A stretch of 64,000 nt of DNA from Dyadobacter sandarakinus. GTDB lineage: Bacteria > Bacteroidota > Bacteroidia > Cytophagales > Spirosomataceae. This document shows, in pieces, positions 2,932-52,706 of this stretch; positions within the stretch are counted from its first letter, which is position 1; each line of letters begins with the position of its first letter. The notes beneath the pieces were generated by a model. It searched no databases, was not told where the DNA came from, and was given only the letters and a program-made list of their open reading frames with translations. Location of the stretch: the NCBI RefSeq assembly GCF_016894445.1, contig NZ_CP056775.1, positions 310,001 to 374,000 of the forward strand. Direction: 5' to 3'. The translations under genes were made by a program, and so were the position numbers.

Positions 2932-3573
2932 ATGCTCGAAGAACGGAATGTAGAAAAAAGGGTGGCAGAGCTGCTGCTGGAAGCCCGCGCGATCAAGCTG
3001 AGCCCTGAAAAACCTTTTCAATGGAGCTCCGGCTGGCTTTCACCTATTTATTGCGACAACAGGGTGGCACTGTCTTACCCCGACACGCGTACCTACATCA
3101 AAAAACAGCTTGCAGAACTTGTCAGGAACGTGTACCCGGAAGCCCGGGCAGTGGCCGGCGTAGCTACGGGTGGTATCGCGCAGGGTGCACTTGTGGCCGA
3201 CATGCTTGAACTTCCGTTTGCCTACGTCAGGCCCGAACCTAAGAAACATGGTATGGGAAACCAGATCGAAGGAAGGCTAGAACCCGGCCAGCCCGTCGTG
3301 ATCATTGAAGATCTGATTTCAACCGGCGGAAGCTCGCTTAAAGTTGTGGATGTACTGCGCGAAGCCGGAATCGGAATTGCAGGGATGGTGGCGATTTTTA
3401 CTTATGGTTTTGAAATTGCCGAGCAGAATTTTAAAAATAAAAATGTAAAGTTGACTACGGTGAGCAACTACAATGCATTGATTGATACGGCATTGGAGCA
3501 CCAGTATATTGATGGTTCGCAGCTGGAAAGTCTGGCCGCCTGGCGGCTTGCTCCGGAAAGCTGGGGTCGCTAG
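2932..3573 (+). CDS. pyrE: Orotate phosphoribosyltransferase
   Basis: Converts orotate and PRPP to orotidine 5'-monophosphate in de novo pyrimidine synthesis. The PRPP-binding motif VVIIEDLISTGGSS lies at residues 122-135, and the catalytic-loop region YVRPEPKKHGMGNQIEG precedes it. Length of 213 residues is normal. The ATG is one base after the stop of the CorC-like gene, indicating translational coupling or at least one transcript. A strong hairpin terminator follows at 3637. Confidence 0.96.
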   Translation: MLEERNVEKRVAELLLEARAIKLSPEKPFQWSSGWLSPIYCDNRVALSYPDTRTYIKKQLAELVRNVYPEARAVAGVATGGIAQGALVADMLELPFAYVRPEPKKHGMGNQIEGRLEPGQPVVIIEDLISTGGSSLKVVDVLREAGIGIAGMVAIFTYGFEIAEQNFKNKNVKLTTVSNYNALIDTALEHQYIDGSQLESLAAWRLAPESWGR

Positions 3574-43712: not shown

Positions 43713-43973
43713 ATGAAAAATACAAAAAACATCCTAGTTGGAGCCATGCTGGCCATGACTATTGCGACTTACGCTAATGCTTCTAATAACGTATATAAAG
43801 CAGAAGAAAAAACCAAGGTGACCGGCCTTAACCAGTCGCTGCCCGTATCGCTTCCGGCTTTGGACGGTCCGGCTCCTTTGAAAGAAAAAGTTGCCCTGGA
43901 AAACAGCAAGCATACAGCTGCACAAAAAGCAGCCATCGTAGGTCTGCAACTGAAAAGCAATACTGCGAAGTAA
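43713..43973 (+). CDS. Small secreted protein, function unknown
   Basis: 86 residues with a clear Sec signal peptide (MKNTKNILVGAMLAMTIATY, ending near ANA), leaving a mature chain of about 62 residues. The mature part is rich in Ala, Lys, Leu and Pro, with no Cys and no recognised motif (SLPVSLPALDGPAPLKEK in the middle). It has its own strong promoter and its own terminator, so it is expressed separately, and it stands just upstream of a two-component system. I do not recognise the family. Confidence 0.72.
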   Translation: MKNTKNILVGAMLAMTIATYANASNNVYKAEEKTKVTGLNQSLPVSLPALDGPAPLKEKVALENSKHTAAQKAAIVGLQLKSNTAK

Positions 43974-44179: not shown

Positions 44180-44878
44180 ATGAAGTTGTTGCTTGTTGAA
44201 GATGAACCGAGTGTGATATCGCTGATACAGCGCAGCCTGTCGGCCTCCGGGCATGAAGTTGCCGTTGCGATGGACGGACAGTCGGGACTGCAGATGGCCT
44301 CCCAGCATGTATTTGACGTGATTATCCTGGACCTGATGCTGCCGGTGATCAATGGAATGGAAGTGTGCCGCCGCCTTCGCGATGCAGGATTTGTGACGCC
44401 TATCCTGATGCTTACGGCGCTGGGAACCACTGAAAATATTGTTTCGGGCCTGGATGCCGGTGCTGACGATTACCTGACCAAACCTTTCAAGCTGGCAGAA
44501 CTCGAAGCAAGGCTGCGGACCCTGGCCAGGCGCGGAAAAGAACCCGAATCTGACAAAACGGAACATGTACTGACGCTGGGTGACCTGGTGCTTGATAAGG
44601 ATACCAAGAAAGTAAAGCGGGGACAGGAGGAAATTGATCTTACCGCCACCGAGTTCAGGCTGCTGGAATACCTGCTGGCCAACCAGAACCGCGTGCTGAA
44701 CCGGATGGAAATCCTGGAAAATGTATGGGACATCAATTTCAACCTGGGTACCAATGTAGTGGATGTTTACATCAACTACCTGCGCAAGAAAATTGATAAA
44801 AATCACGCTGCCAAACTCATCCACACGGTATTTGGAATGGGGTACGTGCTGCGGCTTTCCTATGAAAATTCAAAATAA
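44180..44878 (+). CDS. OmpR/PhoB-family response regulator
   Basis: 232 residues. The receiver domain (1-120) has the acidic pair in LLVEDEPS, phospho-acceptor Asp51 in IILDLMLP, Thr in LMLTALG and Lys in YLTKPF. The winged-helix DNA-binding domain (about 135-228) shows TATEFRLLEYLLANQNRVLN and the recognition-helix region TNVVDVYINYLRKKID, ending GMGYVLRL. Members bind tandem 10-11-bp direct repeats. The start at 44180 begins the conserved strand. The kinase gene begins 17 bases before its stop, so the pair is coupled. Confidence 0.95.
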   Translation: MKLLLVEDEPSVISLIQRSLSASGHEVAVAMDGQSGLQMASQHVFDVIILDLMLPVINGMEVCRRLRDAGFVTPILMLTALGTTENIVSGLDAGADDYLTKPFKLAELEARLRTLARRGKEPESDKTEHVLTLGDLVLDKDTKKVKRGQEEIDLTATEFRLLEYLLANQNRVLNRMEILENVWDINFNLGTNVVDVYINYLRKKIDKNHAAKLIHTVFGMGYVLRLSYENSK

Positions 44879-46226
44879 GATCGCACTGCTTTTTACGATC
44901 CTGTCAGGAGGTATTATACTGGCACTGAGTGTCATGCTATACTTTTTTGCTACCGAAAGTATTTCAGAAAGCTTTTTCCACCGGCTCGAAGTACGCTCCG
45001 ACATTGTGGGGCACGCTGCCCTGGAAGAGAACCGGTCGCGTACATCCATTTACTACGCGATTAAGGAAAAGCACCTGGGCGATCTGCCTTTTGAGAAACA
45101 CAGGGTGATCTGGGACAAGGATACGCTCCGCATCAAAACAGTTCAGGCTCAGCTGCCCATGCCGGCTTCATTCTACACGTCCATCGGTCTCCACCGTCCG
45201 GTACGTTTTTCCAAAGGTGATACAAGCTATGTAGGGCTTGAAATCCGGCATTTGGGGCGGATGGCTGTGGTGATCTCCTCCGCCGTCGACCTGTTTGGGC
45301 AGGAAGAAATAGATTACCTTCAGAAATTGCTTGTGGTGGGCTTTCTGATATCCCTTGCGCTGGTGTTTACCTCCGGTAAACTGTTTTCCGGGCAGATCTT
45401 CAAGCCTGTAAGGCAGATCATCCGCAATGTGAACGGCATCAGCGCGCACAACCTCAACCAGCGTCTCACCGTCAAGGATACCAACGATGACATTTCTAAT
45501 CTTGCCAAAACGTTCAACGATATGCTGGACAGGCTGGAAATTACCTTTGAGATCCAGAATAACTTTGTCAGCAATGCTTCCCACGAGTTTAAAACCCCGC
45601 TTACTGTCATCAGCGGGGAGGCGCAGCTCGGACTTTCGGCTCCCGAACTTTCAGAGGCTGCCAGGCAGTCATTTACAACCATTTACAAAGAGTCGGAGCG
45701 GCTCGAACACCTAACCAATAGTATGCTGAGCCTGGCGCAAACAGGTTTTGACGGCAAAAAAGAGCAGTGGACGCAGCTGCGCATTGATGAGCTGATTATC
45801 GCCGTCAAGGAAGCTGTCAACAAAATAATGCCTTCCAATCAGGTTGAAATAGATTTTAACCTGCTACCTGAAGATGAAGAGCGACTGGTGGTAAGCGGCA
45901 ACGAAGCCCTGCTGAAAGCGGCATTTACGAACATTGTACTCAACAGCTGCAAGTACTCCGACAACAAGCCCGTGCTCATTTCCATCCGCGCCGACCGTGC
46001 CCATGTGATCGTTGACATCCTGGATCAGGGCATTGGAATTCCCGACCGTGAGATTGCCCAGATCTTCGTGCCTTTTTTCAGGGCTTCCAATACAGGTAAG
46101 TACAAGGGGTACGGGATTGGACTGCCGCTTGCACATAATATCATCCGGATGCACAAGGGGAGCGTGAACGTCGAAAGTCAGGTCGACAAAGGAACACGTT
46201 TTGTGACTTTCCTGCCCGTAGCCTAG
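44862..46226 (+). CDS. Two-component sensor histidine kinase
   Basis: 454 residues. Two membrane helices (about 7-28 and 150-170) flank a small periplasmic sensor domain of roughly 120 residues with no recognised fold. A HAMP linker follows (about 175-225), then HisKA with His241 in NASHEFKTPLTVI and an HATPase domain: N box IVLNSCKYSDN, G1 ILDQGIGIPD and G2 GYGIGLPLAHNII. It should phosphorylate the adjacent response regulator. The signal is unknown. The start overlaps the regulator gene by 17 bases. Confidence 0.94.
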   Translation: MKIQNKIALLFTILSGGIILALSVMLYFFATESISESFFHRLEVRSDIVGHAALEENRSRTSIYYAIKEKHLGDLPFEKHRVIWDKDTLRIKTVQAQLPMPASFYTSIGLHRPVRFSKGDTSYVGLEIRHLGRMAVVISSAVDLFGQEEIDYLQKLLVVGFLISLALVFTSGKLFSGQIFKPVRQIIRNVNGISAHNLNQRLTVKDTNDDISNLAKTFNDMLDRLEITFEIQNNFVSNASHEFKTPLTVISGEAQLGLSAPELSEAARQSFTTIYKESERLEHLTNSMLSLAQTGFDGKKEQWTQLRIDELIIAVKEAVNKIMPSNQVEIDFNLLPEDEERLVVSGNEALLKAAFTNIVLNSCKYSDNKPVLISIRADRAHVIVDILDQGIGIPDREIAQIFVPFFRASNTGKYKGYGIGLPLAHNIIRMHKGSVNVESQVDKGTRFVTFLPVA

Positions 46227-46249
46227 CGCCTTCTCATTACTTTCTAATA

Positions 46250-46304
46250 TTCTTAACGAATTTTAATGATCTTCTTAGACGATTATAATCGTCTTCTTAA
46301 TCGG
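46250..46304. repeat. Five 11-bp phased direct repeats (candidate regulator sites)
   Basis: Consecutive 11-mers starting at 46250, 46261, 46272, 46283 and 46294 read TTCTTAACGAA, TTTTAATGATC, TTCTTAGACGA, TTATAATCGTC and TTCTTAATCGG: a TTcTTAa core every 11 bases, one helical turn. OmpR/PhoB-type regulators bind such arrays in tandem. The array lies between the kinase gene and the UspA-like gene. Binding by the adjacent regulator is inference. Confidence 0.65.
46277..46294. repeat. 18-bp perfect palindrome within the repeat array
   Basis: AGACGATTATAATCGTCT is its own reverse complement. It is embedded in the phased repeats, has no loop or T-run, and so looks like a protein-binding site more than a terminator. 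Confidence 0.6.
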
Positions 46305-46377
46305 GCCTAATACCTCTGCTGTAACATTGCATTGTCAAATTTTTTACGAAAAAGATTGTCAATCAAAACATTGCAGC

Positions 46378-46860
46378 ATGAAGACGATCATCATACCCAG
46401 TGATTTTTCAGGTGAAAGCATCCAGGTGGCCGAAACGGTGGTGAGGGACTCGGCAGAGGAGGTCCGCCTGGTTTTTATACATCTTTTCCACGTCTCCCAC
46501 GACATCCAGGACCTGCTCTTCCTGCAGGAGCGGGAGCGTGAGTACTCCTACGTATCCGACCAGTTCTGGGAGGAATGCAAAATGCTGAAAGACTTGTTCG
46601 GAAGACGGCTCAAAAGCATCCGGATCGACTTTTACTACGGCAATAAGCTCGCTTCGTTCAAGAATTTCCTTGAACATCATGAAACTACCGCCATCGCAAT
46701 CTCTGAAAGTTACGGCGTCCCGAAGCTCAACAAAAACAGCATCGATGCCGTACCGGTGCTCAGAAAATGCGGGTACCCCATCGTCGATACCGATCTGATC
46801 CATGTATCTGCACTCACTGCATCAGGCACAACATTCCGCAGGCCCGAGGTTAATTTTTAA
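46378..46860 (+). CDS. UspA-like universal stress protein
   Basis: 160 residues. MKTIIIPSDFSGESIQVAET is the family-typical first strand and helix, with the alpha/beta pattern and ISESYGVPKLN near the position of the usual nucleotide-binding loop, but a canonical G-x2-G-x9-G-S/T motif is not evident, so it may not bind ATP. Cytoplasmic. Role probably in stress adaptation. The bestrophin gene follows after 20 bases, indicating an operon, and the 11-bp repeat array lies upstream. ATG 46378 starts the conserved strand. Confidence 0.65.
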   Translation: MKTIIIPSDFSGESIQVAETVVRDSAEEVRLVFIHLFHVSHDIQDLLFLQEREREYSYVSDQFWEECKMLKDLFGRRLKSIRIDFYYGNKLASFKNFLEHHETTAIAISESYGVPKLNKNSIDAVPVLRKCGYPIVDTDLIHVSALTASGTTFRRPEVNF

Positions 46861-47829: not shown

Positions 47830-48711
47830 CTACCATTTGCGAAGGCCATTGTGGATATCCGTGAGAATGCTGCAGTCGTCCCGCACCCAGTTGCCTGTGT
47901 TGTGCCCGGGATGTTTGGCTTTGAGCAGATAGTCCTCGAAAATAGCCCGGGCTTCCAGCGCATTTTCACGCGAATAAAAACAGTTGATCCACGACTGAGG
48001 CATTTTGTCTTCTTTTACCACACCCACTCCTACATTGAAAAGCTTGATAATACCCTCCGAGAACTCCCACGAAACCGTTTGATCCTTCCTGAGCGCGGCA
48101 TTATTGAGCAGGTAGGCATTATGCCGGATGTAGTTGGTAAGCCGGTAAACAAGCTGGCTGCGGTTTTCGGGGCGCTGGGGCCGGATGCGCCAGGTGTTGT
48201 TGGATGGATGAAAAGGATCTTCCCTGAACCCACCGGTGCGCCGCGCATACTCTACCAGCGACACGCTGTTGCCCGGCGAGAAATCAAGTACCAGCATCCG
48301 CGATCCCTCCCGGGTTACGTCAAAGTCCATCGCGATTTCCAGAGTACTCCGGCCTGAGGTCAGGAAAAGGGACGACGTGCTTGTGTCAACGGCCCACCGG
48401 CCCTGGTCGTACTCACCATTGGTGCGGATCTGCGTAAATGTACTGTCTTCAAAAAAAGAGATCAGCAGCTCATGGTTGTCGGTTACCTGTTGTCTCAGCA
48501 GCTTTTTTCCGCGCGGGTCCACGATCATCGCCTCATCCATTTCACTGATTCCCGTCAGTCGCCAGGTACCGCTGAGGTTCCGGCTGCGCGCGAGTTCCAT
48601 CCGCTCGCGGTAGCTCAGTGCCGGCTTTTTGATCCCGGAGCGGTATATGATCCCGTGGTGGTCGAATATCGTGATCATAATAAAGAGCAAAAGAAGCTTG
48701 ACGGCAGTCAT
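47830..48711 (-). CDS. Hypothetical lipocalin-like envelope protein
   Basis: 293 residues. The N-terminus has one hydrophobic stretch (MTAVKLLLLFIMITIFDHHG) that could be a signal anchor. From about residue 45, NLSGTWRLTGISE and the following beta-rich run recall lipocalin-like domains of Bacteroidota, but no exact family can be fixed. The C-terminal half (residues 170-293) is charged and helical with no known motif. Envelope location is inference. It is monocistronic, converging on the bestrophin gene and divergent from the giant PVC-type gene. Confidence 0.65.
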   Translation of the reverse strand: MTAVKLLLLFIMITIFDHHGIIYRSGIKKPALSYRERMELARSRNLSGTWRLTGISEMDEAMIVDPRGKKLLRQQVTDNHELLISFFEDSTFTQIRTNGEYDQGRWAVDTSTSSLFLTSGRSTLEIAMDFDVTREGSRMLVLDFSPGNSVSLVEYARRTGGFREDPFHPSNNTWRIRPQRPENRSQLVYRLTNYIRHNAYLLNNAALRKDQTVSWEFSEGIIKLFNVGVGVVKEDKMPQSWINCFYSRENALEARAIFEDYLLKAKHPGHNTGNWVRDDCSILTDIHNGLRKW

Positions 48712-48872: not shown

Positions 48873-51800
48873 ATGTACTTTTTAAAATCTTTACCTGCCC
48901 TGCTGGTAGCAGCATTGCTCTGCTTCGGCCTGCAACAACAACCAAAACGCGAAATGCCGCCCATCGCCGACCCGCAGCTCCGCGCTGTGCAAAGTGCTGA
49001 TGGTGAAATGATCCGGATTTTCCGGGCCGGTGAAACCAGGCCTGTTCTCACCCAGAATGCAAAGGCGGATTTCCGGCCTTACCTGCACCCGATTGTCGCA
49101 CCCGATGGAAAAGGAGTGCTGACGGAGTACAGCCCGGGTCATCACAAACATCAGACCGGCATATATTGGGGCTATACCCGCGTCAACGGTCGCGATTATT
49201 TTCACCACCCGTCAGACGGATATTGGAAAAAAGTGTCCTCGAAAGTGACCGCGGCAAAAGGCAAGGAGGTGAAGTGGCAGACCGTCTATCATCTCCTTGA
49301 CTCGGCAGGCACCGCCGTGTTGACCGAAACCCAGAACTGGACCATGCGGCAAAAAAACGGGAAGTACCTGCTGGACCTTGAATGGAATGGCGAAGCCCAG
49401 ACGGACGTCACCATCGGCAAGTACGATTATGGCGGTCTGTTTGTGCGGATGCCGTGGAAAGAAGGTATCAAAGGGGAAGTAGTAAACGCTGCACGGCAGA
49501 AAAACGAAAAAGCCGAGGGGCAGGCCGCTCATTGGGTGGACATCGGGATGCAGGTGGAAGGCCGCAGAGACCTGGCGCATATTGCCATTCTGGATCACAA
49601 ACAAAACAAAGGATATCCCCAGACCTGGCGGGTGGACAGTCAGCTGGGAGCCGGCCCGGCACGCGCGCGCAGCGGGGATTGGTTTATCAAAAAAGGCGAA
49701 ACCGAGACCATCAGGCACGAACTCGTTATTTACACAGGTGAGCTGGATGATGTAGCACTTAATAAAACCTTTGGCGAGTTTGTGGGTGATAACGGAATTT
49801 ACAACGCCACTGCATTGTGGGCGCTGGCACAAAAGGAGGGGCGGGAAGCCAAGTTCCTGAGTGCGCAGGAGGCAGTTGCATCCATGACCATCAAAGACGG
49901 GTACCAGGTAAATGCATGGGCTTCCGAACCGATGATGACACAGCCGATGGCATTTTGCTGGGACGATAAAGGCCGGATGTGGATTGCCGAAAACAAGGAT
50001 TACGAATCCCGCGGCAAGGGCTTCTCCAATGCAGGTACCAGCCGCATCCTGATTTTGGAAGATACCGACAAAGACGGAATTGCCGATTCCCGGAAAGTGT
50101 TTGCTGAGGGTATCGCATTTCCTTCTGCCCTCGCAGTGGGCTTTGACGGTGTATTTGTGGGGGCGCCGCCCAATTTGCTTTTTATACCGGACAAAAATGG
50201 TGACGACAAGGCCGATATGGATGATATTCAGGTACGGCTTACCGGCTGGGGCATCCGCGACCGCCATGAGACACTCAACAGCTTTCACTGGGGACCTGAT
50301 GGCTGGCTGTACGGTCTGCAGGGTTTTGCAACACCGTCCACTGTAGGGAAGCCTGCAGGAAAAGGAAAGCTGTACCGGCACAAAGATCCGTTTCCGGAGA
50401 ACATCCAGGTTGAAGATGGCGTGGAGATCAATGGAGGAGTGTGGCGGTACCATCCTGTAAAGCAAAAGTTTGAAGTTGTTGCACACGGCTTTTCCAATCC
50501 GTGGGGCATTGATCATGATGCCAAGGGGCAACTCTTTATTACAGCCTGCGTCATCCCGCATTTGTGGCATGTGGTGCCCGGCGGGATCTACCACCGGCAG
50601 GGCGGGCAGCATTTCAATCCCTACGTTTATAATGACATCAAGACGATCGCTGATCACAGTCACCGCTCAGCACATGGAGGCGCGCGCATTTACCAGTCTG
50701 ATGCATTTCCGGCCTCTGAGAAAGGCAAGATTTTCATGGCCAACATTCACGAGCATGGCATTTTATCGGACATACTGACACCAAAGGGTTCCGGTTTTAC
50801 AGGCAGCCATTCCGACGACTTTATGATGGCCAACAATGCACAGTGGGTGGGATTCAGCATGGAAACGGGACCGGAAGGTGCCTTGTATGTACTCGACTGG
50901 CACGATGCGGATATCTGCGGCTCCGACGTACTGAACTCGGAAACAGGCCGTATTTTCAGGATTACACCCAAAAATTCACTGGCTGAGCATTTTCCCAACC
51001 GCTACGCGGATCTTAATACACTGAGCGATCTGGAACTGGCTTCGCTGCAAACCAGCAAAAGCGACTGGCATGCGCGGCGGGCAAGGGTCATCCTGCAAAA
51101 CCGGGCAGTAAAGGGCAATATTTCCGAAGCTGCAATCGGAAAACTGAATGCTATATTCAGCGAAGGCAGTCCGGACGATCGTTTGCGGGCTATGTGGGCA
51201 CTGCAGGTGATCAATGCATTGTCCGGAAATCAGCTTACTGCTTCGCTGTCAGACAAAGATGCGTATGTACGTGCCTGGTCGATCCAGTTTTTATGTGAAA
51301 ATGGCCAGCCCGCTCCTGAGGTAACTGCAAAGCTGGCCGAGCTGGCCAAGAAAGATCCCTCACCTGTAGTGCGGCTGTACCTGGCCTCTGCTTTACAGCG
51401 CATTGAAGCTGCCTCCAAGTGGAAGCTGGCTTCTGCACTTCTTGCACATGGCGAGGATGCAAATGATCATAATCTGCCTAAAATGATCTGGTTCGGCATT
51501 GAGCCGCTCGTGAAAGAGAATCCTGCGAAAGCACTGGAAATGTCGGCCACGTCGAAGCTCCCGATGGTTACTGCATTCATCGCCCGGCGTACCGTGGACG
51601 CCGACCAGGTAGAAACCCTCATTGCTGCCATCGGGAAAGCGCCTGTCAACAGAATGGACTTGCTGAAAGGAATGCAGGATGCACTGGCCGGCCGGACCGA
51701 TATCAAGACACCTGCCAACTGGCCGCCTGTACTGGCCAGGTTAAAGCAGTCGGATAAAGCGACGGCTTCGCTGGCCACAGAGCTGAACCGGCAGTTTGGT

Positions 51801-52706
51801 AACACCGAGGCAGCCAAAGCCGACCTGGCTACGTTGAAAAGCAAAAGTGCTACTTTGGAGCAAAAGCAGAAAGCATTACAGTCTCTCACGGTCCGACAGC
51901 GTCCTGAGCTTGAAGCGGAGCTGCCCGCATTGCTCAATAATGCCGCACTTCGTGCCGATGCGATCCGGAGCGTAGCTGCATTTGAAAGTGAGCCCCTGGC
52001 CAAGTCCCTGATTGAGAATTATCCCCGTTTTTCAAGAACAGAAAAAGCGGAGGCAATCCAGACCCTTGCTTCAAGACCCAAATCGGGCTGGCTGCTTACA
52101 CAGGCCATTGCCAGCAAAACAATTCCGAAAAAGGATGTTCCTACCTATGTGGCCCGGCAGCTGAGGCGCGTGGTAGGCAGCGGATTTGTGGAAGTGTGGG
52201 GACCTATCGACCACGTCGCCTTTGATGAGAAAGCTTACAAGAAGTACAAGGACCTGCTGAGTGAAAAATCTGTGGCAGAGGCAAGCAAGGCTCGGGGCAG
52301 GATTGTGTTTCAGCGTACCTGTGCGCCCTGCCACAAGCTTTATGGTGAAGGCGGCGTGATCGGTCCGGAGCTGACGGGCTCCAACCGTGCTAACCTGGAT
52401 TACCTCCTCGGCAACATTCTTGATCCAAGCGGCGAAATCCAGGACGACTACAAGATGGTGGTAGTAACCATGCGCGACGGACGGACGTATGTGGGTAATG
52501 TAGCCAAAGAAACCGATCGTCAGCTAACCCTCCGTGTGGTGGGGCAGGATGCAGTGGTTGTCAACAAGGCCGACATTCAGACCCGTGAAGTAAATGAAGC
52601 CTCCATGATGCCGACGGGTTTGCTGGATAACCTGACCGATAAGGAAGTAACGGAATTAATCGCCTATTTGAAGACAAACGCGCAGGTTCCGCTGGTAGGG
52701 AGATAG
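48873..52706 (+). CDS. DUF6807-PVC-type dehydrogenase-cytochrome c fusion protein
   Basis: 1277 residues with a signal peptide (about 1-20). Part 1 (about 25-320) is a DUF6807/PmoA-family domain: RPYLHPIVAPDG and SPGHHKHQTGIYWGY. Part 2 (about 330-690) is the beta-propeller of PVC-type dehydrogenases: GRMWIAENKDYESRG, DTDKDGIADSRKVFAEGIAF and WGPDGWLYGLQG. Part 3 (about 700-1110) is an alpha-helical HEAT-like array. Part 4 carries a cytochrome c domain with the haem site Cys1150, Cys1153, His1154 in CAPCHKLYGEGG. It is expected in the periplasm, perhaps oxidising a sugar or polyol and passing electrons on through the haem. A fusion of DUF6807 with the other three is unusual to my knowledge. 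Confidence 0.87.
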   Translation: MYFLKSLPALLVAALLCFGLQQQPKREMPPIADPQLRAVQSADGEMIRIFRAGETRPVLTQNAKADFRPYLHPIVAPDGKGVLTEYSPGHHKHQTGIYWGYTRVNGRDYFHHPSDGYWKKVSSKVTAAKGKEVKWQTVYHLLDSAGTAVLTETQNWTMRQKNGKYLLDLEWNGEAQTDVTIGKYDYGGLFVRMPWKEGIKGEVVNAARQKNEKAEGQAAHWVDIGMQVEGRRDLAHIAILDHKQNKGYPQTWRVDSQLGAGPARARSGDWFIKKGETETIRHELVIYTGELDDVALNKTFGEFVGDNGIYNATALWALAQKEGREAKFLSAQEAVASMTIKDGYQVNAWASEPMMTQPMAFCWDDKGRMWIAENKDYESRGKGFSNAGTSRILILEDTDKDGIADSRKVFAEGIAFPSALAVGFDGVFVGAPPNLLFIPDKNGDDKADMDDIQVRLTGWGIRDRHETLNSFHWGPDGWLYGLQGFATPSTVGKPAGKGKLYRHKDPFPENIQVEDGVEINGGVWRYHPVKQKFEVVAHGFSNPWGIDHDAKGQLFITACVIPHLWHVVPGGIYHRQGGQHFNPYVYNDIKTIADHSHRSAHGGARIYQSDAFPASEKGKIFMANIHEHGILSDILTPKGSGFTGSHSDDFMMANNAQWVGFSMETGPEGALYVLDWHDADICGSDVLNSETGRIFRITPKNSLAEHFPNRYADLNTLSDLELASLQTSKSDWHARRARVILQNRAVKGNISEAAIGKLNAIFSEGSPDDRLRAMWALQVINALSGNQLTASLSDKDAYVRAWSIQFLCENGQPAPEVTAKLAELAKKDPSPVVRLYLASALQRIEAASKWKLASALLAHGEDANDHNLPKMIWFGIEPLVKENPAKALEMSATSKLPMVTAFIARRTVDADQVETLIAAIGKAPVNRMDLLKGMQDALAGRTDIKTPANWPPVLARLKQSDKATASLATELNRQFGNTEAAKADLATLKSKSATLEQKQKALQSLTVRQRPELEAELPALLNNAALRADAIRSVAAFESEPLAKSLIENYPRFSRTEKAEAIQTLASRPKSGWLLTQAIASKTIPKKDVPTYVARQLRRVVGSGFVEVWGPIDHVAFDEKAYKKYKDLLSEKSVAEASKARGRIVFQRTCAPCHKLYGEGGVIGPELTGSNRANLDYLLGNILDPSGEIQDDYKMVVVTMRDGRTYVGNVAKETDRQLTLRVVGQDAVVVNKADIQTREVNEASMMPTGLLDNLTDKEVTELIAYLKTNAQVPLVGR

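Follow-up and report, generated by a model that had tools for sequence, protein, structure and literature searches.

A conserved array of 11-bp half-sites as the predicted operator-promoter of a UspA-like/bestrophin operon in Dyadobacter sandarakinus

The window analyzed here, a 64-kb stretch of contig NZ_CP056775.1 of D. sandarakinus, carries genes for a two-component system followed by genes for a UspA-like protein and a bestrophin-family protein, with a phased repeat array in the gap from the end of the kinase gene (46226) to the beginning of the UspA-like gene (46378) (Table 1). The regulator consists of a receiver and a winged helix with the recognition helix TNVVDVYINYLRKKI. Its best NCBIfam match was the CusR/CopR model TIGR01387 (223.2 bits; the cut-off of 279.2 was not reached), that of the kinase was TIGR01386 (162.3 bits, below the cut-off of 292.55), and the PmrA model NF007928 gave the regulator 144.5 bits, short of its cut-off of 330. 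On these scores the regulator was not assigned to the heavy-metal CusR/CopR group or to PmrA, and it was kept within the OmpR/PhoB family by its domains. The sensor region of the kinase, between the membrane helices, was modeled with confidence (pLDDT, 88.2), and Foldseek matches to it were weak, the best being to CpxA (E value, 0.035) with WalK also among them. The UspA-like protein had no Pfam (including PF00582) or NCBIfam match, and a Usp-like fold was identified by structure comparison of its model (pLDDT, 87.4). At E values of ≤0.001, 24 of the 33 matching PDB chains were labelled universal stress protein; the top chain (E value, 2.3e−8) was labelled hypothetical (PH0823), and TM-scores were modest (about 0.4 to 0.55). 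Seven of 28 relatives matched PF00582 (best, 3e−8). The bestrophin-family protein scored 209.9 bits against PF25539, for which the gathering cut-off is 27. No Rfam family reached its gathering score between positions 43900 and 48000.

Table 1. Genes and regulatory features at the locus (window coordinates)
Feature	Position	Strand	Basis or remark
OmpR/PhoB-family response regulator	44180..44878	+	Pfam PF00072 (Response_reg), PF00486 (Trans_reg_C)
Membrane histidine kinase	44862..46226	+	Pfam HAMP, HisKA, HATPase_c
Upstream half-site pair, CTCAT (46233) and CTAAT (46244), 11 bp apart	46233..46248	+	
Main array, six half-sites at exactly 11 bp	46252..46311	+	Last four align ungapped in 50/50 loci
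Spacer from last half-site to −7 box, 10 nt	46312..46321	+	Same length in ungapped 50-locus alignment
−7 promoter element TAACATTG	46322..46329	+	One mismatch to TAnnTTTG
UspA-like protein, 160 aa, first gene behind the array	46378..46860	+	Predicted structure
Bestrophin-family protein, predicted anion channel, 302 aa	46881..47789	+	PF25539, E value 7.5e−62

Further open reading frames lie around these genes. One of 86 amino acids (43713 to 43973) upstream of the regulator gene had no Pfam match, and ORFs of about 86 to 119 amino acids occupied a similar place in several relatives. A 293-amino-acid ORF on the − strand (47833 to 48711) was likewise without a Pfam match, and several relatives carried a similar ORF of 292 to 312 amino acids behind the bestrophin gene. 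A single 1,277-amino-acid polypeptide encoded at 48873 to 52706 combines DUF6807, DUF7133, HEAT, and cytochrome c domains.

The first-pass annotation had described the array as five copies of TTcTTAa phased at 11 bp. The spacing was exact, with unit starts at 46250, 46261, 46272, 46283, and 46294; the units were not identical copies and instead alternated (TTCTTAA, TTTTAAT, TTCTTAG, TTATAAT, and TTCTTAA). A better description was a 5-base core with half-sites of the CTTA/CTAAT type, giving CTTAA (46252), TTAAT (46263), CTTAG (46274), ATAAT (46285), CTTAA (46296), and CTAAT (46307) in the main array. The last of these had been missed, and together with the upstream pair, which is separated from the main array by a step of 8 rather than 11 bp (46244 to 46252), the array comprises eight units. 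It can also be read as a chain on the − strand. Using the core [ACT]T[AT]A, chains of five or six units were found in 0 of 5,000 dinucleotide shuffles of the intergenic region and a chain of four units in 4 of 5,000, and no further chain of at least four units occurred anywhere in the 64-kb window. A genome search with a two-unit pattern (TTCTTAA-N4-TTCTTAA, two mismatches allowed) was discarded, as it returned 67 matches compared with 77 in the reversed control; the pattern was uninformative, and whole arrays were therefore modeled. An 18-bp palindrome, AGACGATTATAATCGTCT (46277 to 46294), noted earlier as part of the array, is present and perfect in the window. Its five outer base pairs were mostly lost in 16 relatives of the same genus (0 to 4 of the 5 paired), so the palindrome was rejected as a functional site and is regarded as incidental.

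Conservation was assessed by searching for the UspA-like protein in 150 genomes of the same family, of which 53 had a match. The family set consisted of the window and 49 of the 53 genomes, with G013, G110, and G138 left out; array sites adjoined the UspA-like match in G013 and G138, and none was shown next to that in G110. A matrix was refined from ten seed loci and then on the same 50 family loci, which scored 27.8 to 69.0. Four promoter-proximal units, a 10-nt spacer, and a −7 box resembling TAnnTTTG could be aligned without gaps in 50/50 family loci, a figure that describes the set rather than tests it, since the matrix had been refined on these very loci. Chain length gave a measure independent of the matrix: the mean half-site chain per locus was 3.66 units at a spacing of 11 bp, compared with 1.1 to 2.2 for all other spacings between 6 and 22 bp. 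With a strict core, chains of at least three units were present in 39/50 loci and of at least four in 28/50. The remaining 11/50 had only two units at 11 bp, and because chains of two were reached by 8 to 32% of shuffles of the same stretch, the alignment in these loci rests on the matrix. The longest unbroken 11-bp chain, of ten units, was found in G042, and two other genomes had chains of eight. Within Dyadobacter, strict-core units were located at −30 in 17/17 loci and at −41 in 16/17, the places of the upstream CTAAT and CTCAT, respectively (the CTCAT at 46233 of the window falls outside this core), and the 8-bp step between the second and third half-sites was kept across all 17. An alignment (A1) and a model (R1) were built from 42 of the 50 loci, leaving out L043, L051, L067, L068, L071, L080, L081, and L083, which include the three weakest sites (L068, L081, and L083); 15 columns were invariant across the 42 aligned loci.

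The element behind the array resembles Bacteroidota σA promoters, for which PMC9723704 gives a −7 box consensus of TAnnTTTG, numbered −12 to −5 in Flavobacterium psychrophilum. The likeness lies in a −7 element whose distance from the array is constant, and a transcription start is predicted near 46334. The last two half-sites begin 26 and 15 bp upstream of this element; in the numbering of PMC9723704, they cover −38 to −34 and −27 to −23, across the −33 position. This is the difference from the σA promoters, as the −33 position is here taken by the last two half-sites.

For a held-out test, loci were drawn from a bestrophin alignment, which named 550, and the 80 best of these were used. Dyadobacter contributed 25, overlapping with the genomes used for training, and other genera contributed 55, of which 3 were excluded as no UspA was found, leaving 52. 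For 51 of these 52 (within the best 80 of 550), the highest-scoring + strand match anywhere in the locus, which spanned up to 8.9 kb, fell 20 to 170 bp upstream of the UspA-like gene and also scored above the entire − strand. The exception, L144 from Imperialibacter, has its own array at 3428 and a stronger match at 184. Genera with an array before the UspA-like gene included Chitinophaga, Pedobacter, Niastella, and Rufibacter. The 51 sites scored −7.3 to 53.3, with four below 0; low scores came mostly from Chitinophaga, Flavihumibacter, and related MAGs with differing half-sites. Maximum scores for twenty shuffled loci averaged −26.6, the highest being −14.2. The held-out loci are related to one another, so a binomial probability computed from them exaggerates the strength of this result. 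Absence of the array from relatives that share this gene order had been named in the first-pass annotation as a result that would count against the proposal; the array was conserved in 50/50 family loci and 51/52 others.

A class-wide scan using R1 matched 42 of 295 genomes at an E value of ≤0.01. Of the 29 loci listed besides that of the window's own genome, 21 had a kinase or regulator gene within the 3-kb stretch and 16 had a UspA-like gene, followed by a bestrophin gene in 4, a SulP gene in 4, and a DUF1275 gene in 8; 6 of the 29 had neither a kinase, a regulator, nor a UspA-like gene.

Genes of a two-component system flank the array in 46/50 family loci. For the other four, the best-matching regulator gene was 5.7 to 7.9 kb upstream in three and on another contig in the fourth. 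The gene following that for the UspA-like protein encoded a bestrophin in 18 loci, a SulP permease in 10, and a DUF1275 protein in 7 (with or without a small gene), with another gene or none in 15; the SulP (PF00916) and DUF1275 (PF06912) domains were identified from one representative each. The UspA-like gene is thus the constant target of this branch, and its membrane partner varies by lineage. The array does precede a UspA-bestrophin operon, as first annotated, but the bestrophin gene is not a constant part of the target. As 15/50 family loci have neither bestrophin, SulP, nor DUF1275 following, an anion theme is not universal. A second link to SulP was found elsewhere in the genome of the window (L263; G000:C1:5737000-5744500), where an array directly precedes a 578-amino-acid SulP gene (PF00916) beside another two-component system with a TN-type helix, again pointing to anion transport. 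The array of L264 precedes an efflux-like operon (named from its sequence), that of L267 precedes an OEP gene (PF02321) with an RND-like gene (likewise read from sequence), and nothing obvious lies behind that of L265. The array of L266 (G000:C1:1650500-1658500) is situated 83 bp in front of the gene for a paralogous regulator, which suggests possible self-regulation of that paralogue. No array was seen before the window's own regulator gene, matches in the window outside the array region scoring −14.4 or lower. In two further loci, L233 (G124:C12:30500-37200) and L236 (G086:C25:49500-56200), three separate array matches were seen within ∼1.2 kb downstream of a kinase gene, in a stretch that holds small ORFs of 102 to 162 amino acids.

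The association between arrays and regulators was examined across three genomes. The genome of the window (G000) encodes 12 winged-helix regulators, six of which have a recognition helix of the form TN-hh-[DE]VY. An array was located within about 1.7 kb of all six of these genes (scores of 56.0, 25.6, 17.4, 11.9, 8.6, and 5.6) and of none of the six others (−23.6 or lower); eight other 3-kb loci of the same genome peaked at −18.2. The result for G015 was the same, 6/6 versus 0/6, with array scores of 6.7 to 30.6 plus one array cut by the locus end and the others at −22.0 or lower. The G015 count includes L286 and L280, whose array is cut by the locus end; L286, L280, and L283 were assigned by hand, the script having placed L286 among the others and given low scores to the cut arrays of L280 and L283. 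G109 fits poorly, with an array near 1/2 such regulators and 0/11 others: L291 (TNVIEVY) had no array within 1.5 kb, and L281, L285, and L294, with near-variant helices, were also without an array. The best matches among the other regulators of G109 reached −5.3 and were not arrays by eye, and the gap between the groups is therefore narrow in places (lowest intact array, 5.6). Pooled over the three genomes, an array was near 13/14 TN-hh-[DE]VY regulators and 0/23 others (Fisher P = 3.9e−9, relatedness ignored), or 13/17 and 0/20 if the three near-variants are counted as TN-type. Together with the conserved gene order, this supports the original proposal that an OmpR/PhoB-type array is tied to the adjacent regulator. 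Twenty other family array sites were picked by hand, one per genome, from the stronger matches not associated with UspA; 15 had a kinase or regulator gene no more than 2 kb away and one was at a second UspA-like gene, and in the other four neither kind of gene was in view, one of these being at a contig end.

The half-sites also vary with the recognition helix. Position 5 of the half-site was C in 73/112 units where the helix carries K (28 loci), compared with 48/388 where it carries N (97 loci); the N/K residue is residue 192, counting the first methionine as 1. Placed on the regulator tree, the switch from N to K amounts to just one or two events; the covariation therefore lacks statistical independence and was rejected as statistical proof.

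From the units, their spacing, the −7 box, conservation, gene order, and the helix-type association, all of which can be read directly from sequence, a mechanism can be proposed. It is quite likely that the array serves the UspA-like/bestrophin operon as its operator-promoter and that the protein binding there is the regulator whose gene lies 1.4 kb upstream. An envelope or periplasmic signal would be sensed by the histidine kinase, which would phosphorylate the regulator; dimers of the regulator would then load head to tail with one protomer per 11-bp half-site. The four conserved promoter-proximal units would be occupied first and the extra upstream units after them. The fixed 10-nt spacer would set the regulator next to RNA polymerase; this spacer, together with the last two units over the −33 place, points to a PhoB-like activated promoter, and the regulator probably activates the operon from a head-to-tail OmpR/PhoB operator. 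The products would be a Usp-like protein and an anion channel. Since relatives often replace the channel with a SulP permease or another membrane protein, the output looks like an adjustment of anions, pH, or osmotic state with a Usp partner.

Other explanations of the array differ in how far they depart from this mechanism. That it is a chance repeat or an artefact of A+T-rich intergenic DNA is barely credible: single half-sites are short and common, and the two-unit pattern was no more frequent in the genome than in its reversed control, but a chain of five was absent from all 5,000 shuffles and conservation across many genera contradicts chance. Intrinsically bent or UP-like DNA acting without a specific protein is very improbable. 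The units are rich in A and T and recur about once per turn of the helix; however, the conserved part is a specific sequence (the 15 invariant columns in 42 loci) rather than A-tracts, the arrays go with one helix type of regulator, and the mean chain at 10 bp was 1.90, compared with 3.66 at 11 bp. The array is, on these comparisons, a genuine and conserved predicted operator of a known kind.

Two alternatives accept the operator and differ in its use. In one, which appears unlikely, it serves mainly paralogous regulators or is shared with them, and the neighboring regulator is not its specific partner. Five other regulators of the genome carry nearly the same recognition helix, the half-site cores are similar, and differences between the paralogous arrays are modest, so cross-regulation may occur. 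Against this, the window array was the best match of R1 in its own genome (E value, 1.5e−9, the next being 0.007, with 150 of 671 candidates scored), the array stays beside the same kind of regulator-kinase pair across genera, and every paralogue is accompanied by an array of its own. The second R1 site (0.007) lies between a divergent paralogous regulator gene and an outer-membrane efflux gene (PF02321), and the R1 search missed weaker arrays found near paralogous regulators. In the other, which is improbable, operator and regulator are unchanged, and the regulator acts as a repressor that covers the −33 region or can both repress and activate the operon. The last two units do overlap that region, a place also used by repressors, but the invariant 10-nt spacing from the −7 box is suggestive of a regulator touching polymerase, as at PhoB promoters. 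Activation by the neighboring regulator is the reading retained here.

Operators of a related kind are known from other systems. The CusR/CopR heavy-metal systems supplied the best NCBIfam matches of the regulator and kinase, and some paralogous arrays precede efflux genes (PF02321); the output here differs, being a Usp-like protein and a bestrophin. The classical cop/cus box is an inverted repeat and not an 11-bp direct repeat. The enterobacterial PmrA (BasR) box has the half-sites CTTAAT and CCTAAG head to tail with 5 bp between them (PMC3973317), and has in common with the array an OmpR/PhoB regulator, a period of 11 bp, and an almost identical half-site sequence. It has two half-sites, whereas the arrays described here mostly have four to ten. 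VbrR of Vibrio parahaemolyticus, another OmpR/PhoB regulator, was crystallized head to tail on TTCTAAT and TTCATCG (PMC10157535); its DNA-binding domains are likewise arranged head to tail and TTCTAAT is itself one of the frequent units in the arrays described here, but the crystal contains two half-sites, and the phylum and the targets are different. At pitH2 of Streptomyces, the stretch covered by PhoP comprises four core and two ancillary 11-nt repeats (PMC7866108), and these PHO boxes resemble the array in having several 11-nt direct repeats with four core units and extras. They differ in belonging to a phosphate response in another phylum, and the array here precedes a Bacteroidota −7 promoter. 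The half-site letters of the PhoP PHO boxes also differ from those of the array. By analogy, the array would work in the manner of a PHO box or a PmrA box. Its physical principle is known, as are even the letters of the half-sites, and the length of the arrays, the helix rule, and the circuit look new; no paper on the circuit, the motif, or the helix-to-array rule was found in searches of an open-access library that lacks most subscription papers.

A wider reading is offered tentatively, with slightly more doubt than confidence. Bacteroidota regulators of the OmpR/PhoB class with the helix T-[NK]-h-h-[DE]-V-Y may use one operator grammar, consisting of four or more half-sites of the YTWA type, spaced at 11 bp and ending 10 nt before a −7 box, usually just behind the gene of their own kinase. 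One branch of this class could be an ancient kinase-regulator-Usp-anion transporter module for anion and pH homeostasis in which bestrophin and SulP are interchangeable. To our knowledge, operators of two-component regulators in the Bacteroidota are little mapped, and the role of bestrophins in bacteria is largely unknown. If the operator grammar is true, the targets of many uncharacterized two-component systems would become readable from sequence, and if the helix-to-array rule holds, the targets of orphan systems could be predicted in the same way and tested directly. The module would also provide a physiological handle on bacterial bestrophins, through their signal pathway and the genes that replace them.
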